Under the pieces are notes generated by a model. That model was not told where the DNA came from and searched no databases. It was given only the letters and a program-made list of their open reading frames with translations. The position numbers and the translations under genes were made by a program. From Alcanivorax jadensis T9 (lineage in GTDB: Bacteria > Pseudomonadota > Gammaproteobacteria > Pseudomonadales > Alcanivoracaceae), in the NCBI RefSeq assembly GCF_000756655.1, contig NZ_ARXU01000004.1:186001-250000 (forward strand): a stretch of 64,000 nt of DNA, given 5' to 3'. Shown here in pieces: positions 2,362 through 9,846 of the stretch (position 1 is the stretch's first letter; every line of letters begins with the position of its first letter).

Positions 2362-4521
2362 CTAATGCAGAAGAATATCTCTCGAAGAATCACCATTTTT
2401 TACAAGGACTTTACCAATTTCTGACGCGTTCACTCCCGCTTCACGCAATTGCACAAGGGCCTGGGCCAGTGCCGCTTCGGGAATGCTGAACAGCAGTCCG
2501 CCGGCGGTTTGCGGGTCACACAGGATAGTCAGTAGCGACTCAGCAATCTGCTGCGTATCGCAATGCATCAACACTTGCCGGTTGGCCTCGTTGAGGGTGC
2601 TAATCACTCCGTTTTCAATCAGCGACAGAGTGCCGGGCAGCAGGGGAACGCTGTCGCTATCGACGGCCATGGCCACATCACTTTGCTGACAGATTTCATG
2701 GAGATGGCCGAGCAGACCAAAGCCGGTGACATCGGTGCAGGCGTGCACGGGAAAACCCTGCATGACCTGCTGGGCGATGCGATTGCTGACCAGCAGGTGG
2801 TCCAGAGTGGCATCCAGCCAGGGGCCGTACAGTTTATTTTTCTGCATCATGGCGGCCAGCTGCACGCCGCTGCCCAGGGGTTTGGTCAGCAGCAGACGAT
2901 CGCCGTTCCGGGCGCCGCGTTTGTGCCAGAGTTGTTGCGGGTCCGCCTGACCGTTGACGGTAAAGCCGGCGGCCATCTGCGGGCCTTCGATGGTGTGGCC
3001 GCCAACCAGGGTGCAGCCGGCGGTGTTCAGTTCTTTCACGGCACCAGCCATCAAGCGGTGCAGATCCCGACCCTGCAATTTCGGGTGGTGCCAGGGCAGG
3101 GTCACGTTGGCGAGGGCAGAGTGGGGCGTGGCGTTCATGGCGTACAGATCGCTGAGGCTGTGCAGGGCGGCGACTCTGCCGAACAGGTAGGGCTCGTCAA
3201 TGAAGGCCGGGAAATAATCCAGGCTCTGCACCAATCGCTTGTTGTCTGCCCAGTGAATGATGGCCGCGTCGTCGGCGGCATCAACGCCGGCTTCAATGCC
3301 GTCGCTGAGATAAGGCTGTAAATCCCGCAAGGCATCATGGAGCGCGCCACTGCCCACCTTGGCGCCGCAGCCGGCGCAATGCAGGGTATCCGGGTCCGCC
3401 GCAGGCGGTGTCATGGTGGGTAACTGGCGATCGAACTTGTCCATGAAGGCGCGATCGATGCGATCCTTCCAGCGCCATACCCAGTGTCCGGCAACGGACA
3501 GGGTTCCGCCACGGCTGGCCACTGCCTGCTTGCCGCCAGCGGAGAGCAAAGAAAGAAAGCGTTTCTGCGGTTGGTAGGCCTGCAAGGGTTGCCCGCTGAT
3601 GGCGGCGTTCAGGTTGTGGGCCAGCACCTTGGCCTGACGCACGGCATAAACGCCGGCCTTGGGCAGGCTGTCGGGGAAGGCGGCGCAATCGCCGGCGGCA
3701 AACACGCGGCTGTCGCTGCGGCTTTGCAGGGTCTCGTTTACCCGCACAAAGCCCTTGTCGTCACAGTCCAGGTCGCTGTCAGCGATCACCCGGGTGCCAC
3801 GTACGCCGGTGCACCAGAGCACCCGGGTGGCGTCCAGGGGAGCTTCGTTGGCGTAGAGCGCATCGCCGCGTTTTTCCACCCGTGTATGCTCACGCAACTG
3901 GATGCCGTAGTCATCCAGATAGCGTTGCATGCGCCGCCGCACGGATTCCGGGTAGCCTGGCAGTAGTTCTCCGCCGCTGATGAGTGACAGGGCTCCATGG
4001 TGTCCGGCCTGTCGCTGATGTTCGGCGATGGCCAGGACCATTTCCGTACCACCGGCGCCAGCGCCTACCACGGCCAGTGGGCTGTCATGATCACGCCATT
4101 GCTGCCAGCGCTGGTGGAAACTGGCTACCGGTTTTACCGGCACGATGTCCGGGTGACCGCCACCCACGGGTTGCAGGTCCGGTGTGGCGCCCACATCCAG
4201 GCTTAGCCAGTCATAGTCCAGGGTACTGCCATCATCCAGAGTCAGGCGCCGTTCGGCGCTGCAGATCTGTGTTACCGCAGCGCGGATAAAGCGGGTGCCG
4301 GTGGTCAGGCATAGCCGGTACAAATCCACGTGGCTATCGGTGAGGGTGTAGTGGCCGGCGATCAGGCCGGGCAGCATACCGGAATAGGCGCTCAACGCAT
4401 CGGGCGACACCAGGGTAATCCGTACGCCGGGGATCGGTTTCATTGCCAGCATGCGCAGGGCCAGGGCATGGCTGTGGCCGCCGCCAATCAATACCAGGTC
4501 GTGGTTGGCCAAGGGGGTCAT
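2362..4521 (-). CDS. selD: Selenide, water dikinase fused to an NADH-dehydrogenase-like FAD domain
   Basis: 719 residues from ATG 4521, which overlaps the stop of the phzF-like gene (ATGA); a longer frame to 4683 is not needed. Residues 1 to about 370 are a type II NADH dehydrogenase-like flavoprotein with two dinucleotide folds (VLIGGGHSHA; AVVGAGAGGTEM). From about residue 380 it is selenophosphate synthetase, which makes selenophosphate from selenide and ATP. The active-site motif CAGCGAKVG keeps the catalytic Cys (C385, E. coli Cys17) and Lys (K388, Lys20); the second Cys (E. coli Cys19) is Ala387. LVGGHTIEGP and DVTGFGLLGH are typical SelD motifs. The flavoprotein may reduce the selenium source to selenide (inference). 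Confidence 0.95.
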   Translation of the reverse strand: MTPLANHDLVLIGGGHSHALALRMLAMKPIPGVRITLVSPDALSAYSGMLPGLIAGHYTLTDSHVDLYRLCLTTGTRFIRAAVTQICSAERRLTLDDGSTLDYDWLSLDVGATPDLQPVGGGHPDIVPVKPVASFHQRWQQWRDHDSPLAVVGAGAGGTEMVLAIAEHQRQAGHHGALSLISGGELLPGYPESVRRRMQRYLDDYGIQLREHTRVEKRGDALYANEAPLDATRVLWCTGVRGTRVIADSDLDCDDKGFVRVNETLQSRSDSRVFAAGDCAAFPDSLPKAGVYAVRQAKVLAHNLNAAISGQPLQAYQPQKRFLSLLSAGGKQAVASRGGTLSVAGHWVWRWKDRIDRAFMDKFDRQLPTMTPPAADPDTLHCAGCGAKVGSGALHDALRDLQPYLSDGIEAGVDAADDAAIIHWADNKRLVQSLDYFPAFIDEPYLFGRVAALHSLSDLYAMNATPHSALANVTLPWHHPKLQGRDLHRLMAGAVKELNTAGCTLVGGHTIEGPQMAAGFTVNGQADPQQLWHKRGARNGDRLLLTKPLGSGVQLAAMMQKNKLYGPWLDATLDHLLVSNRIAQQVMQGFPVHACTDVTGFGLLGHLHEICQQSDVAMAVDSDSVPLLPGTLSLIENGVISTLNEANRQVLMHCDTQQIAESLLTILCDPQTAGGLLFSIPEAALAQALVQLREAGVNASEIGKVLVKNGDSSRDILLH

Positions 4522-5294
4522 CACAGCAGAATATCGCCTTTCAAAAAGCAGCGGGCCTGGCCACTCAGGGTAACCCGGTCTCCTTTCAGGGTGCAGTGTA
4601 ATTCGCCGCCCCGTGCAGAAAGCTGGCGGGCATGCAGGGTGGTCTTGCCCAGCCGTTCGGCCCAGTAGGGCACCAGGGTGCAATGGGCGGAGCCGGTCAC
4701 CGGGTCTTCCGGCACGCCCTTGGCCGGGGCGAAAAAGCGGCTGACGAAATCGCAGTCATCGCCGGGGGCGGTGATCATGATCGCAAAGGTATCCAGTTTG
4801 CCGATGGCGGCAAAATCCGGCTGGAAGTTGCGTACCTGTTCCGCACTGTCCAGCACCACCAGGGTATCGCGAGCCTGAAGAACCTCCGTAAGAGGAATGC
4901 CCAGCGCCTGCTCGTAGGGTGCCCGGCTGCTGACCGGGTGCGCCGGTCGGCTGGGGAAATCCAGGCTCAGGGTCTGGCCGTTGCGCTCCACATACAGGGC
5001 ACCGGATGCGGTATTGAAACGAATCCGCTCACCGGGAAATCCCAACGCATTGAACACTACCCAGGCAGCCGCCAGGGTGGCATGGCCACACAGATCCACT
5101 TCCACACTGGGGGTAAACCAACGCAGCGTATGGCCGGTGTCGTCCGCCACCAGAAAGGCCGTCTCCGACAGGTTGTTCTCCATGGCGATGTTCTGCAGCA
5201 GGGCATCGTCCGGCCAGCTTTCCAGCGGCACCACGGCTGCCGGGTTGCCGGCAAACAGGGAAGAGGTAAAGGCATCGACTTGATAGAGTTTCAT
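4521..5294 (-). CDS. PhzF family isomerase/epimerase-like protein
   Basis: 257 residues, close to the usual family length. It shows the diaminopimelate-epimerase-like two-lobe pattern, with MKLYQVDAFTS at the start, the conserved acidic residue in ENNLSETAFL, the DLCGHATLAAAWV motif, and DPVTGSAHCTLVPYW in the second lobe. PhzF relatives isomerise small acids without cofactor; the substrate here is unknown. It sits between the transporter permease (37 nt upstream) and selD (4-nt overlap), so it is part of the selenium cluster. This suggests a small-molecule role linked to selenium, which is inference. Confidence 0.88.
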   Translation of the reverse strand: MKLYQVDAFTSSLFAGNPAAVVPLESWPDDALLQNIAMENNLSETAFLVADDTGHTLRWFTPSVEVDLCGHATLAAAWVVFNALGFPGERIRFNTASGALYVERNGQTLSLDFPSRPAHPVSSRAPYEQALGIPLTEVLQARDTLVVLDSAEQVRNFQPDFAAIGKLDTFAIMITAPGDDCDFVSRFFAPAKGVPEDPVTGSAHCTLVPYWAERLGKTTLHARQLSARGGELHCTLKGDRVTLSGQARCFLKGDILL

Positions 5295-5331
5295 GAGCTG
5301 CCTTGAAAATAACGCGTTCGTTTCATTGCCT

Positions 5332-6852
5332 TCATAGACCCAACCCCGGTTTTAGCCGTAACCGCTTGCGCAATCCCCGAGACAATGCATCCACCGCCAG
5401 ATTGAGCATCACCGTGGCCAGGATCAATAGCAGGGTCCGATCGAAGCGGAATTCCGCCACGCTGGAATCAATATAGAAACCCAGGGTATGAATGCCAAGA
5501 ATCCCCAGCACCGCCGTTTCGCGCATGATCACTTCCCAGCGGTAGAGCAGGAAGGCCAGCAGATTGGGGGTGACGCGGGGCAGTACTTCCCAGGCGTAGC
5601 GTTTGAGGCCGGTGGGGGCATCGGCGCGCAGCGTCAGGCTTTCGCTGAAGCGGCCGGTGAGGTGAGCAACGATGGCACCGGTGTGCAGGGCCAGGGCCAG
5701 GATGCCCGGCAGCATGGATGGGCCGAGCAGAATCAGGAAGAAGAAGGCGAGAAAGAATTCCGGGGTGGTGCGCATGACCACCAACAGGCCATGGCCGGCG
5801 GTACGGCTGACCCGGTTGCCGAACAGGGGCGAGATCAGAGGAAACAGCAGCAGCGATAGCAGGCCGGTGAGCAGCAGGGCTCCGAGGCCCAGCACCAGGG
5901 TCTGCCAGAGCCCCGGCCACAGTTGTTGTTGCCAAAGCATGGCAAACCACTGCCACAGTTCCGTCAATCCTCCGCCCTGGCGTAACGGCATTGGTACCAG
6001 ATCCACGGTGACAAAGCGCACCAGGGTATCGAGCCGACCGGTGAACAGCGGTGGCGCCCAGGCAATGGCGGCCAGCAGGTATACCGGAATCAGCGCCGGG
6101 CGCAGCCACCAGCGCAGGGTAAAGATGATGGCAAAGAACAGGTAAAGCAGGGCGGCGCCCTGGTCGTAGCTGCCTTCACGAAAGGCGGTTTCCAGATGGA
6201 AACCCAGGGTGGGCAGGCCGATGAAACCCAGGATGGCTGAGGCGCGGATGGCGCATTCCAGCCGGTAGCCGCCGTAGGCCTTGAAGGCCTGCCAGACCAG
6301 TGGCAGGCGGGCATAGAAAAACACGCTCAGGCGCTGGCCGCTGGCTGGCAGGGCGCTGGCGGGGGCCGCGTCGGCTTCCTCCAGAAATTCACCGAAGACC
6401 TTGGCGAAGATGCCCGCGTAGGGAATGGCGATGGCCAATACCCCGGTGACGGTGCTCAGCCCGGCCACCTGTAACAACAGCAACCCCCAGAACAGCTCAT
6501 GGACAGCGCGGATGCTGGCGGCAAAGCTCCGCACCCAACGTTGATGCCAGACCATGGCCATGAGAAAGCCGAACAGGGCGGCCAGGGCGGTGCCCTGCCA
6601 GGCGAAGGCCAGGGTATTGGCCAGTGCTCGCCAGAGGTTATCGGTGGAGAAAAAGTCTGGTGCCAGAAAGCCCTGGCCCATGCGCAGCAGCTCGCTGCCC
6701 GGGGAGGAGCGGGCTATCTCCAGGTCGGCAAACGCCAGGGCAATCAACCCGGCTACGGCGAGCCAGAAGCTGGCACGGCGCCAGCGGGAGGCGGTGGTGT
6801 TGATGACGGGATACCGGGCGCCGGAAGCCTGGCCGTGCTCGCCGGGGCTCAT
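5332..6852 (-). CDS. PhnE-type ABC transporter permease, two permease domains fused; putative selenium-compound uptake
   Basis: 506 residues, about twice the length of a single PhnE. Two homologous halves each carry an EAA-loop-like end (ILGFIGLPTLGFHLE near residue 215; ILGIHTLGFYID near residue 460) and several membrane helices. The second-half sequence RTTPEFFLAFFFLILLGPSMLPG is typical of phosphonate-type permeases. It overlaps the ATPase gene by 4 nt. The fold belongs to the phosphate/phosphonate importers, but the position beside selD and mnmH, with no C-P lyase gene nearby, favours a selenium oxyanion or similar substrate. The substrate is inferred, not shown. Confidence 0.85.
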   Translation of the reverse strand: MSPGEHGQASGARYPVINTTASRWRRASFWLAVAGLIALAFADLEIARSSPGSELLRMGQGFLAPDFFSTDNLWRALANTLAFAWQGTALAALFGFLMAMVWHQRWVRSFAASIRAVHELFWGLLLLQVAGLSTVTGVLAIAIPYAGIFAKVFGEFLEEADAAPASALPASGQRLSVFFYARLPLVWQAFKAYGGYRLECAIRASAILGFIGLPTLGFHLETAFREGSYDQGAALLYLFFAIIFTLRWWLRPALIPVYLLAAIAWAPPLFTGRLDTLVRFVTVDLVPMPLRQGGGLTELWQWFAMLWQQQLWPGLWQTLVLGLGALLLTGLLSLLLFPLISPLFGNRVSRTAGHGLLVVMRTTPEFFLAFFFLILLGPSMLPGILALALHTGAIVAHLTGRFSESLTLRADAPTGLKRYAWEVLPRVTPNLLAFLLYRWEVIMRETAVLGILGIHTLGFYIDSSVAEFRFDRTLLLILATVMLNLAVDALSRGLRKRLRLKPGLGL

Positions 6853-7499
6853 TGGTAGAGCGTGTCCAGGTCACCCAGGCTCAGGGTGCTGGCGGGGGCG
6901 TCGAGCAGAATCTTGCCGTCACCCAGGCCGATGATGCGGTCGCAGCATTGCAGCGCCAGCTCCCGATCGTGCAGCGCGACCACGGCGGTATGGTGGCGGC
7001 CCAGTGCCTGGCGCAGCAACGCCAGCCCCTGGTGTTCATCCAGGCTGGAGACCGGCTCGTCGGCCAGCAGTATCGGTCGTTGTGTGTAGAGCGCACGACC
7101 CAGAGCAACCCGTTGCGCCTGACCCCCGGATAACTGGTCCACGCTGGTGAACAGCTTGTCCTGTAACCCCAGCTCCCGGGCCAGTTCGCCGACGCTGGAC
7201 TTTTCCCGGGCGCTGGGCCAGATCAGGTTGCGCAGGTTGGTCAGGGTCGGGTTACGGGGTAGGGCGCCCATGTAGAGATTGTGGAAGACGCTGAGCATGG
7301 GGACCAGGTCGCCGGCCTGGGGGCACCAGGCACAGCTGGCTTCCTGTTGCTGGCGCAGTGCCGCCAGCAGGGTGGACTTGCCGGCGCCGGAGGGACCCAG
7401 CAAGGCGACTTTTTCCCCGTCGGCAATGGTCAGCGACAGGGACGCAAACACGACCTGGCCCGGGTGGCCAAGTCGTGCATTCTCAAGATGGAATGTCAA
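6849..7499 (-). CDS. ABC transporter ATP-binding protein (PhnC-like)
   Basis: 216 residues. Walker A GPSGAGKSTLL, signature LSGGQAQRVALGRAL and Walker B ILLADEPVSSLD are all intact; the Q-loop is CAWCPQAGDLVPMLSVFHN. It lies 12 nt after the binding-protein gene and overlaps the permease gene by 4 nt. It should power the fused permease. The family is phosphonate/amino-acid type; at 216 residues it is shorter than typical PhnC (about 260), because the C-terminal part is minimal. Confidence 0.9.
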   Translation of the reverse strand: MTFHLENARLGHPGQVVFASLSLTIADGEKVALLGPSGAGKSTLLAALRQQQEASCAWCPQAGDLVPMLSVFHNLYMGALPRNPTLTNLRNLIWPSAREKSSVGELARELGLQDKLFTSVDQLSGGQAQRVALGRALYTQRPILLADEPVSSLDEHQGLALLRQALGRHHTAVVALHDRELALQCCDRIIGLGDGKILLDAPASTLSLGDLDTLYQ

Positions 7500-7511
7500 A
7501 ATCCGATCCTG

Positions 7512-8384
7512 TTACTGTGCGTCCAGCAGGCCGATGGCTTCGGCAGTTTCCTCGATTGGCGCAAAGTCGTCATTGCTGGCGGGGATGAATTTTTCCCGCG
7601 GGAACGCATTCAGCAATACCGGGTCATCGATGGCCAGCAGGGCCTCGGTGACGCGCTGGCTGAAACCGTCGCCGAACTTGTCATTCAGATCGCCGCGTAC
7701 GGTCCAGTGGTAGTCCGGATAACCGGGGGTTTCCCAGATCACCTGTACCTTGCTGGTGTCGATCTTGCCTTCTTCCAGCTCGCGCTCCCATACCTTGTAA
7801 TTCACCGCGCCGGTAGCGTAGGCGCCGCTTTGTACCAGGGCGATGGTGGCGCTGTGGTCGCCGGAGAAGCCGACTTTATCAAACAGTTGGTCCGGGGCCT
7901 GGTTGAAGGTCTCGCGCAGGTAGAACTCCGGCATCAGGCGCCCGGAGGTGCTGCCCTTGGAGCCGAAGGTGAAGGACGGCTGATCGATAAAGGACTCGGG
8001 GAGGGTATCGGACTGAGTCAGGCCGGTACTGGTGTTGGCGATGAAGTAGGACTTGAAGTCAGGATCTTCCAGGCCCTGTGCGATGGCCTGGGAGCCGGGC
8101 ACCAGGCGACGAGCCTGAACACCGGACAGACCGCCGAACCAGGCCATCTGCACTTCGTTATTGCGGAAGGCAGTGACGGCAGCGGCATAGGATTTCACCG
8201 GCACATATTTCACCGGCACGCCCAGTTTTTCTTCCAGATAGAGGGCAACCACGCCGAAGCGTTTTTCCAGTTGCGATTCATCCTGATCAGGGATGGCGGT
8301 GAAAACGAAGGTCCCGGTGTGGGGTTCATTACAGGCAGAGAGCAGCAGTGCTGCAAACAGGGCGGCAAGAAGCTTGAAACGCAT
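7512..8384 (-). CDS. PhnD-like periplasmic binding lipoprotein, putative selenate/selenium-compound binding
   Basis: 290 residues starting MRFKLLAALFAALLLSAC, a lipoprotein signal with lipobox LSAC. The body follows the PhnD/phosphite-binding pattern: FRNNEVQMAWFGGLSGVQARR, SYFIANTSTG, FTFGSKGSTSGRLMPEFYL, and a TGAVNYKVWE segment. It is first in the transporter operon. A recognised clade of these binding proteins next to selD is annotated as putative selenate transport (TIGRFAM, as I remember). Experimental substrate data are not known to me. The alternative is a phosphonate or phosphite binder. Confidence 0.85.
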   Translation of the reverse strand: MRFKLLAALFAALLLSACNEPHTGTFVFTAIPDQDESQLEKRFGVVALYLEEKLGVPVKYVPVKSYAAAVTAFRNNEVQMAWFGGLSGVQARRLVPGSQAIAQGLEDPDFKSYFIANTSTGLTQSDTLPESFIDQPSFTFGSKGSTSGRLMPEFYLRETFNQAPDQLFDKVGFSGDHSATIALVQSGAYATGAVNYKVWERELEEGKIDTSKVQVIWETPGYPDYHWTVRGDLNDKFGDGFSQRVTEALLAIDDPVLLNAFPREKFIPASNDDFAPIEETAEAIGLLDAQ

Positions 8385-8742
8385 TGTTGACTCCGTTCAA
8401 TAGGGAGGCTTACCGGACAAAGTGGACATTCCGTCGCGGGTCCGGCCAGACACGACAAGGTGATTATAGAGCGCCGGGTGCTGGATACCAGTGTACAACG
8501 CAGCCTGGAAGAGAAATCCCTGTTGGAGCCTTGTTTGCAAGGCGAAGGGCGTTATTCCGGTGCCATGCCAGCGGGTAGCTCTTCGCTTTGCGAGCAAAGC
8601 TCCAACGGAGGCTTCGGAGGCAAACCGGGGAGATAATTCCCCTCCGCCTTTCGTTGGAGCCTTGCTTGCAAGGCGAATGCCCGCCAATAGGTTCTGCGGA
8701 TTATTCGCCTTGCGAGCAAGGCTCCAACAGTCGCTTGGAGTT
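8385..8742. repeat. Gap with two inverted REP-like pairs (TTGGAGCCTTG family)
   Basis: No gene. Two paired elements lie here, at 8522-8606 and 8652-8728. Each pairs a GTTGGAGCCTTGnTTGCAAG arm with its inverted copy CTTTGCGAGCAAAGCTCCAAC or CTTGCGAGCAAGGCTCCAAC. This is the layout of REPINs (two REP sequences in opposite orientation). Related copies lie near 16274 and 62939. The elements may form hairpins in the mRNA between mnmH and the transporter genes. Confidence 0.8.
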
Positions 8743-9846
8743 TCAGGCGTCTGGCGTCTGGCGTTCTTCCAGAAACGCCATGACCTCGTTGCGGCTACCC
8801 TCAAAGACGATGTCCCCTTCCCGGCGGGAAAGCATGTAGTCGTACATGGGGTCGTAGTAGTCGCTGAGCAGGGTGCGGATCCAGTCTTCGTGTAGTCCGG
8901 TGTCACCGCTGATGGCCTGGACGGCCAGAGCTTCGGACAGTTGCTGGCGGAGCTGTTGGTGGCGCAGTCCGCCCAGGCGGCGGCGGATGCGGTCCATGGC
9001 GGCGAGCAGCTCTTCCCCCAGATAGTGAAGAGCCTGCTTTTCGCCAAAGTGCTGGCGGTATTCTTCCAGCGGTCCTACCACGTAATCTTCCAGGGTCACC
9101 TGCACCCGGGATTCCAGCGTCTCGTTGATGATGATGCGCGGGCAGGTGCTGATCTTGTCCTGCAGGGAAAAGGGTAGGTGGCAGCGGCCGATCAGTTTGC
9201 TCTCGTCTTCCAGCAATACCCTGGCCGGGCTCTGTGCTCGCTGCTTGAGCATGGCGATGGCCAGGGCATTGTCGAAATCGATCTGGGTGGGCTGACCGCC
9301 GGGGCGTCGGCCGAAGGAAGAGCCACGGTGATGAGCCAGCCCTTCCAGATCCACGGCATTGGTCTGGCTTTCGATGACCCGGGTCTTGGCGCAACCGGTG
9401 CGACCGCAGAGGATCTCGAAGGGCAGGGCGGCAATGCAGGCTTCCATCTCGTCGAGCAGGAAACGGCGCATGGCCTTGTAGCCACCGGTAACCAGCGGCG
9501 CATCGATCCCGGCTTCACGCAGCCAGGCCTGGGTGGTCTGGCTGCGCAGCCCGCCCCGGAAGCAATACAGATAACCGTTCGGATTGGCCTGCCACCATTG
9601 CTGCCAGGCTTGCATGCGCTGTTCGCGCTCGGTTCCGCTGACCAGTTCGTTACCCAGATCAATGGCCGCCTGCTGGCCATGCTGCTTGTAGCAGATGCCG
9701 ATCTGGTGGCGTTCGTCGTCGTTGATCAGGGCGATATTGGCGGCACCGGGGAAGGCGCCTTTGGCAAATTCCACAGGGGCACGCACGTCCAGCAGGGGCG
9801 TGCCGTTCAGGAAGAGGGACAGGAAATCGTCGGTGTCGTTGCGCAT
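8743..9846 (-). CDS. mnmH: tRNA 2-selenouridine synthase
   Basis: 367 residues, the usual SelU/YbbB length. An N-terminal rhodanese domain (PLLDVRAPVEFAKGAFPGA) carries the catalytic Cys95 in YCFRGGLRSQ. A P-loop-like motif CGRTGCAKT near residue 147 precedes HHRGSSFGR. The enzyme replaces sulfur by selenium at the wobble 2-thiouridine of tRNAs for Lys, Glu and Gln, using selenophosphate from SelD and a geranylated intermediate. Together with selD this shows that the organism uses selenium in tRNA; no selA/selB is present in the window. The ribosome binding site is weak. Confidence 0.95.
   Translation of the reverse strand: MRNDTDDFLSLFLNGTPLLDVRAPVEFAKGAFPGAANIALINDDERHQIGICYKQHGQQAAIDLGNELVSGTEREQRMQAWQQWWQANPNGYLYCFRGGLRSQTTQAWLREAGIDAPLVTGGYKAMRRFLLDEMEACIAALPFEILCGRTGCAKTRVIESQTNAVDLEGLAHHRGSSFGRRPGGQPTQIDFDNALAIAMLKQRAQSPARVLLEDESKLIGRCHLPFSLQDKISTCPRIIINETLESRVQVTLEDYVVGPLEEYRQHFGEKQALHYLGEELLAAMDRIRRRLGGLRHQQLRQQLSEALAVQAISGDTGLHEDWIRTLLSDYYDPMYDYMLSRREGDIVFEGSRNEVMAFLEERQTPDA

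Follow-up and report, generated by a model that had tools for sequence, protein, structure and literature searches.

What does a transporter of the phosphonate-uptake fold carry when its genes lie between mnmH and selD, two genes of selenium use? The question is raised by a locus of Alcanivorax jadensis T9 (NCBI RefSeq assembly GCF_000756655.1, contig NZ_ARXU01000004.1), analysed here within a stretch of 64,000 nucleotides (nt; positions 186,001 to 250,000 of the contig, hereafter “the window”). Six genes were found on its minus strand at 2362-9846, transcribed in the order mnmH, binding protein, ATPase, double permease, PhzF-family gene and oxidoreductase-selD fusion; all were real, placed as described in an initial annotation made from the sequence alone, and their family scores agreed with it. 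That annotation had proposed that selenium is taken up for tRNA selenation and that the PhzF-like enzyme may process an organic selenium compound. On comparative evidence, the operon probably takes up and activates selenium, its lipoprotein binding a selenium oxyanion, most likely selenite.

The substrate-binding protein, a lipoprotein of 290 amino acids (aa) with an LSAC lipobox (7512-8384), passed the NCBIfam cut-off of TIGR04553, the “putative selenate” family named in the initial annotation (389.9 bits vs. 250); it is a scoring member of a family whose substrate is a prediction. The transporter resembled the PhnCDE, PtxABC and HtxABC systems in fold family, Ser-Thr-Ser-His-Tyr pocket and PhnC- and PhnE-like partners, but its three components were all under the cut-offs of the corresponding PhnCDE families: 131.7 bits vs. 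261.1 for PhnD, 134.3 vs. 266.1 for PhnC (TIGR02315; the ATPase, 6849-7499, 216 aa, TTG start) and, just below, 214.6 vs. 216.7 for PhnE (TIGR01097, matched in two stretches by the two PhnE-like halves of the fused tandem permease, 5332-6852, 506 aa). The phosphonate-type proteins formed the outgroup in a binding-protein tree (65 rows, built by a quick method with Shimodaira-Hasegawa-like approximate likelihood ratio test support only).

Upstream of the transporter genes, mnmH (ybbB or selU; 8743-9846, 367 aa) encoded a tRNA 2-selenouridine synthase that passed NF008751 (514.5 bits vs. 361) and TIGR03167 (338.3 vs. 219.75). It contained the motifs YCFRGG and GRTGCAKT, which we take to be the rhodanese Cys and the P-loop of MnmH. 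No SelA match was found in the window genome at E<=1e-40, so MnmH is its known selenium user (SenA and SenB were not searched there). At the other end of the operon, the selD gene (2362-4521, 719 aa counted from the ATG overlapping the PhzF stop) encoded a fusion with a pyridine-nucleotide oxidoreductase: the oxidoreductase half passed TIGR03169 (423.8 bits vs. 310), the SelD half passed TIGR00476 (306 vs. 125) with the Cys and Lys of the GCGAK motif present, and the fusion was below the cut-off of TIGR04369, “fusion_not_SelD” (500.1 vs. 700). Catalytic roles are known for Cys17 and Lys20 of Escherichia coli SelD. By analogy with a suggestion made in 2008 for a SelD-linked NADH dehydrogenase, the oxidoreductase half may help to make the SelD substrate (PMC2432076).

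Within the Alcanivoracaceae, a TIGR04553 binding protein scored over the cut-off in 35 of 46 genomes. Stretches of up to about 10 kb on each side of the transporter were examined in each locus. The gene order was shared with other genomes, whereas an order unique to the window genome would, for the initial annotation, have counted against a selenium role: among the 34 other family loci, mnmH was present in 29, SelD in 30, PhzF in 19 and a fused permease in all 34 (one open frame of at least 1350 nt). The five genomes of genus g1 without mnmH in the stretch encoded MnmH elsewhere, SelD was elsewhere in the genome in G410 and G411, and in G381 PhzF was found together with selD on another contig (L060). 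SelD was seen in 34 of the 35 transporter-bearing family genomes, the remaining one (G409, 64% complete) not having been checked.

The selenium reading of the transporter gained from two wider groups in which it goes with SelD, the class Gammaproteobacteria and the Cyanobacteria. Fifteen of 369 class genomes, from 13 family codes, had a TIGR04553 binding protein over the cut-off, and all 15 encoded SelD, vs. 87 of 369 overall (Fisher p 1.4e-10). MnmH was present in nine of the 15 and SelA in four; the five without either (G126, G154, G247, G266 and G333) all had SenA and SenB matches, so each of the 15 genomes has a known selenium sink. These SenA and SenB matches were in the transporter locus in four of the five; in G247 they lay about 15 kb from the transporter, at the locus of SelD. 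NCBIfam cut-offs were passed by SenA and SenB in L003 (G126), by SenA in L006 (G154) and by SenB in L012 (G333) and L004 (G218), and the remaining SenA and SenB matches rest on phmmer scores; three of the five genomes therefore have at least one NCBIfam-passing protein and two have phmmer matches only. Four loci (L002, L003, L006 and L012) held the transporter, SenA, SenB and a fused selD together, as in the senA-senB-selD clusters for selenoneine, whereas in the window genome it is MnmH that stands beside the transporter. Counted from stop to stop, a fused permease frame of at least 1500 nt was present in 10 of the 14 other class loci and in 16 of the 22 cyanobacterial ones; the remaining loci gave no score with the permease query, had a shortened or interrupted frame, or showed two permease frames. 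A sulphur oxygenase reductase gene was also observed just upstream of the G247 transporter (L009:7998-9044).

In Cyanobacteria (194 genomes, the phylum of Elainella saxicola), 22 genomes had a binding protein over the TIGR04553 cut-off, and 18 of these had SelD at E<=1e-40, a gene found in 33 of the 194 (p 5e-13). The nearest solved structures by binding-protein profile were 7s6g (1.8e-90) and 5lq5 (7.5e-83), ahead of the PtxB, PhnD and HtxB structures; both are PhnD1 of marine picocyanobacteria, have 45% and 43% identity to the window protein and, at 338.3 and 302.6 bits, themselves score over the TIGR04553 cut-off. In the tree, 32 class rows (support 100) were sister to the 22 cyanobacterial rows plus both PhnD1 (support 96), with a joint support of 99; three over-cut-off class rows (L007, L008 and L014) branched below both sister clades. 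The four SelD misses were small genomes with a binding protein 94-100% identical to 5lq5. The one of them that was checked, the Prochlorococcus-like G577, whose protein was 100% identical over the compared residues to the crystallised Prochlorococcus PhnD1 (5lq5), was examined over about half of its genome and encoded a SelD fusion just short of the threshold (TIGR00476 133.5 bits, E 8.9e-39) and MnmH (TIGR03167 325.8 bits). MnmH was also seen in G441. According to a 2005 survey (PMC1273633), Prochlorococcus and Synechococcus have a SelD whose extension resembles an NADH dehydrogenase, and ybbB occurs in cyanobacteria. The PhnD1-PhnC1-PhnE1 system (7s6g, 5lq5, 5lq8) shares with the window transporter its pocket letters, a fused permease and a sister position in the tree, but its genes are not next to selD or mnmH, and PhnD1, unlike the window protein, has been described in print as a phosphite binder and possible phosphate transporter. 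The chances are about even that selenite is what PhnD1CE imports in Prochlorococcus and marine Synechococcus, supplying the SelD fusion and MnmH retained by these streamlined genomes, and that its tight binding of phosphite, another three-oxygen anion, reflects mimicry of selenite.

Like phosphite, selenite has three oxygens, and a lone pair stands where phosphite has its hydrogen; it should therefore fit a pocket of the PhnD1 type. The window protein carries the PhnD1 pocket letters (D33, Y66, S145-T146-S147, H177, D224 and Y225), including the capping Tyr (Y225); E. coli PhnD was outside this alignment. In PhnD of the PhnCDE type the pocket is larger, contains one more acidic residue (E177 in E. 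coli PhnD) and lacks the Tyr cap. In the proposed mechanism, the ligand of the lipoprotein would be a selenium oxyanion with three oxygens, most probably selenite (HSeO3-/SeO3 2-), seated in this phosphite-type pocket: the Ser-Thr-Ser loop, His, Tyr and Asp would hold the three oxygens, and the capping Tyr would face the fourth position, occupied by hydrogen in phosphite and by the lone pair in selenite. The fused permease and the ATPase would then import the oxyanion, the cell would reduce selenite to selenide, the fused SelD would make selenophosphate, and MnmH would use it to form 2-selenouridine in tRNA. We infer that selenium is the substrate and selenite, not selenate, its form, as well as the direction in which these steps run and their sequence.

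The same operon could import selenate instead, as the name of TIGR04553 would have it, and the PhnD1 pocket can hold four-oxygen phosphate. In published crystallographic and binding work Tyr, Ser-Thr-Ser, His and Asp bind the three oxygens of the ligand, a Tyr caps the fourth position, and PhnD1 binds phosphite far better than phosphate or methylphosphonate. The phosphite Kd is about 0.05 uM for the Prochlorococcus protein, vs. 182 uM for phosphate, and 1.7 and 2.8 uM for two Synechococcus proteins, for which no measurable hypophosphite affinity is reported. The preference of PhnD1 for phosphite over phosphate favours a three-oxygen ligand, and selenate is accordingly the less probable form, though one to be kept in mind.

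Several observations weigh against a selenium transporter of any kind. The closest solved relatives, PhnD1 (7s6g and 5lq5), bind phosphite and, weakly, phosphate, and the window protein has their oxygen-contacting residues. The pocket does not single out selenium, since four below-cut-off proteins (L016-L019) have the same residues; pocket letters were also tried as a marker of the selenium-linked members and failed to separate them from other members. The co-occurrence statistics were not corrected for shared descent, and a control gave some enrichment too: SelD was present in 39 of 139 genomes with only below-cut-off relatives vs. 33 of 215 genomes lacking any (p 0.0045), a weak association that falls well short of 15 of 15. 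SelD was inside the examined stretch in seven of the 14 other class loci (in L010 as a fragment at a contig end) and outside it in seven, and the transporter was beside selD or mnmH in none of the 22 cyanobacterial stretches. Eleven Alcanivoracaceae genomes were without the transporter; neither SelD nor MnmH was found in five, and both were present in six, so the transporter is not essential for selenium use. Finally, the NCBI label TIGR04369 “fusion_not_SelD” fits the picocyanobacterial-type fusions (959 and 1032 bits; 971 in G577). Even so, both the Cys and the Lys of the SelD motif were retained in each of the seven fusions of this type that were aligned (L165-L171) and in G577, and the label may be wrong for such fusions (L165, L171 and L199).

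Several of these points would suit a transporter for phosphite, phosphate or a small phosphonate that lies next to selD and mnmH incidentally. The initial annotation had counted a place in a phosphite clade against selenium, and formally this is where the protein falls, its closest solved relatives being binders of phosphite in vitro; the outcome cuts both ways, because PhnD1 itself passes the TIGR04553 cut-off and occurs with SelD-type genes. An incidental neighbourhood, however, sits poorly with the SelD and selenium sink in all 15 class genomes that carry TIGR04553. It also sits poorly with the gene neighbourhoods of G577, a genome with a second transporter, PhnD2. In the tree, PhnD2 falls outside the two sister clades, among other below-cut-off proteins. 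The PhnD2 locus (L163:10915-15187) has a single 265-aa permease and adjoins genes for relatives of a 2-hydroxyacid dehydrogenase, of PhnY and of PhnZ, all three below NCBIfam cut-offs, as well as an ACR3 arsenite exporter. PhnY is a methylphosphonate hydroxylase and PhnZ a hydroxymethylphosphonate dioxygenase. The PhnD1 genes of the same genome, with a fused 500-aa permease, have no such company among the four flanking proteins scanned: an aminotransferase, IspG, a TIGR00297 protein and one without a match. According to published reports, PhnD1 occurs in all picocyanobacterial strains with no link to phosphite genes, phnD1 is not induced by phosphorus limitation and carrier strains fail to grow on phosphite (PMC8786288, PMC10284923, PMC5700983). 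A phosphorus substrate is therefore considered improbable.

A further alternative couples the transporter to the PhzF-family gene (4521-5294, 257 aa, of the short type of about 257 aa): an organic selenium compound would be taken up and processed by the PhzF-like enzyme. The gene scored over the cut-offs of PF02567 (188.7 bits) and TIGR00654 (127.8 bits), was the single PF02567 match in the window genome, and encoded E44, H71 and D197, the E-H-D residues of PhzF enzymes, which were invariant in alignment A1; its nearest solved relatives, 1s7j and 4dun, are named merely PhzF-family proteins. It lies between the permease and selD, overlapping selD by 1 nt in the window, in 21 of the 35 transporter-bearing family genomes (window included), and the two genes co-occur in the family (23/12/2/9 in the two-by-two table, p 0.013, uncorrected for descent). 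By genus code, PhzF was in the operon in g1 (17/17), g276 (1/1), g277 (2/2) and g279 (1/1), and not in g273 (0/7), g275 (0/4) or g278 (0/3). Two of the 14 genomes without it in the operon (G400 and G401, among the four of g275) carry it elsewhere.

This distribution, the gene neighbourhood and the dN/dS values lend no support to PhzF as part of selenium metabolism. In G402 and G403 no SelD (E<=1e-20), MnmH (E<=1e-10) or transporter (E<=1e-60) was found, and both keep PhzF together with a stand-alone oxidoreductase domain of the SelD fusion (L056:9481-12054 and L057:7187-9759), with PA2779 and C39 genes about 1.4 kb beyond. Between the two genomes, dN was 0.128 and dS 0.748 for PhzF (dN/dS about 0.17), and dN/dS was about 0.16 for the oxidoreductase. 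Outside the family, none of the 80 best of at least 592 contig stretches with PhzF relatives had mnmH, selD, the oxidoreductase domain or the binding protein nearby (neighbourhoods of at most 8 kb, many contigs shorter; records near the window genome may be missing), and a PhnC-like ATPase in two of the 80 (62 and 87 bits) was taken as generic. PhzF was in the stretch in none of the 14 other class loci and none of the 22 cyanobacterial loci. Since G402 and G403 retain it and none of these 80 outside relatives lies near the genes looked for, PhzF has a task for which selenium is not needed, and the proposal that it processes organic selenium is not supported. The small, capped pocket of PhnD1 also stands against an organic ligand, and this alternative is very unlikely. 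In our reading PhzF rides in the operon of the family as a passenger, related to it loosely or not at all, with a possible side role, perhaps together with the oxidoreductase. Its neighbours in G400-G402 (10 proteins scanned: a cyclic-nucleotide-binding protein, enoyl-CoA hydratase, PhyH, a methyltransferase and a strictosidine-synthase-like protein, among others) suggest no common pathway, though PhyH was near two. The PhzF tree was poorly resolved: the free tree split the 14 family rows, and a tree forcing them together was not rejected and fitted better. Last, another three-oxygen anion such as sulfite, of the same shape as selenite and feeding the sulfur side of tRNA thiolation, is scarcely credible, as it leaves the tie to SelD and SenA/SenB unexplained.

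Selenium thus remains the preferred substrate, and the TIGR04553 transporter family, tied here to three different selenium uses, is a strong candidate for its import. No experimental work on a TIGR04553 transporter was found in a literature search outside which most subscription journals lay. The family name appears in one paper, which lists it when annotating a genome and ventures a guess that selenite is exported (PMC13077682), and a review mentions an ABC (ATP-binding cassette) transporter-related ATPase predicted for a SelD-based trait (PMC9312934). The string “selen” is absent from the main text of both PhnD1 papers, the supplementary ligand list of PMC10284923 not being covered. The element used in assays of the crystallised PhnD1 may have been the wrong one. 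The selenium link offers an answer to the open question of the role of PhnD1 in picocyanobacteria. If it is true, this would be the first high-affinity bacterial selenium ABC transporter, which picocyanobacteria and selenoneine makers would share with the family of the window, and the “not SelD” label would cover a fusion that does make selenophosphate. PhnD1 proteins have already been purified and crystallised.

As for the layout, the five genes from the binding protein through selD form a tight operon, with mnmH 358 nt upstream across repeats. The junctions read from the sequence were a 358-nt gap (mnmH/binding protein), a 12-nt gap (binding protein/ATPase), a 4-nt overlap (ATPase/permease), a 37-nt gap (permease/PhzF) and a 1-nt overlap, TGATG (PhzF/selD): the short junctions of the initial annotation stood, with the 4-nt overlap confined to ATPase/permease. 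A scan for promoters and terminators gave matches no more frequent than in shuffles. The gap (8385-8742) was REP-like, with inverted and direct repeats of 25-33 nt, and three of its inverted pairs, 26-27 nt long, had a complementarity of 88-96%.

Among other SelD proteins, the fusion of G530, a genome with no over-cut-off transporter, lacked the Cys-Lys motif (L179:8043-10250), which is retained in the other fusions aligned, and SelD frames with one in-frame TGA, as in selenocysteine-containing SelD, were seen in G415, G421, G430, G440, G443, G464 and G467, all from the phylum of G414. Downstream of the operon, the window encoded a PA2778 cysteine peptidase (C39) and a PA2779 family protein (917-2314), and these two genes were present in 24 of the 34 other transporter-bearing Alcanivoracaceae loci.

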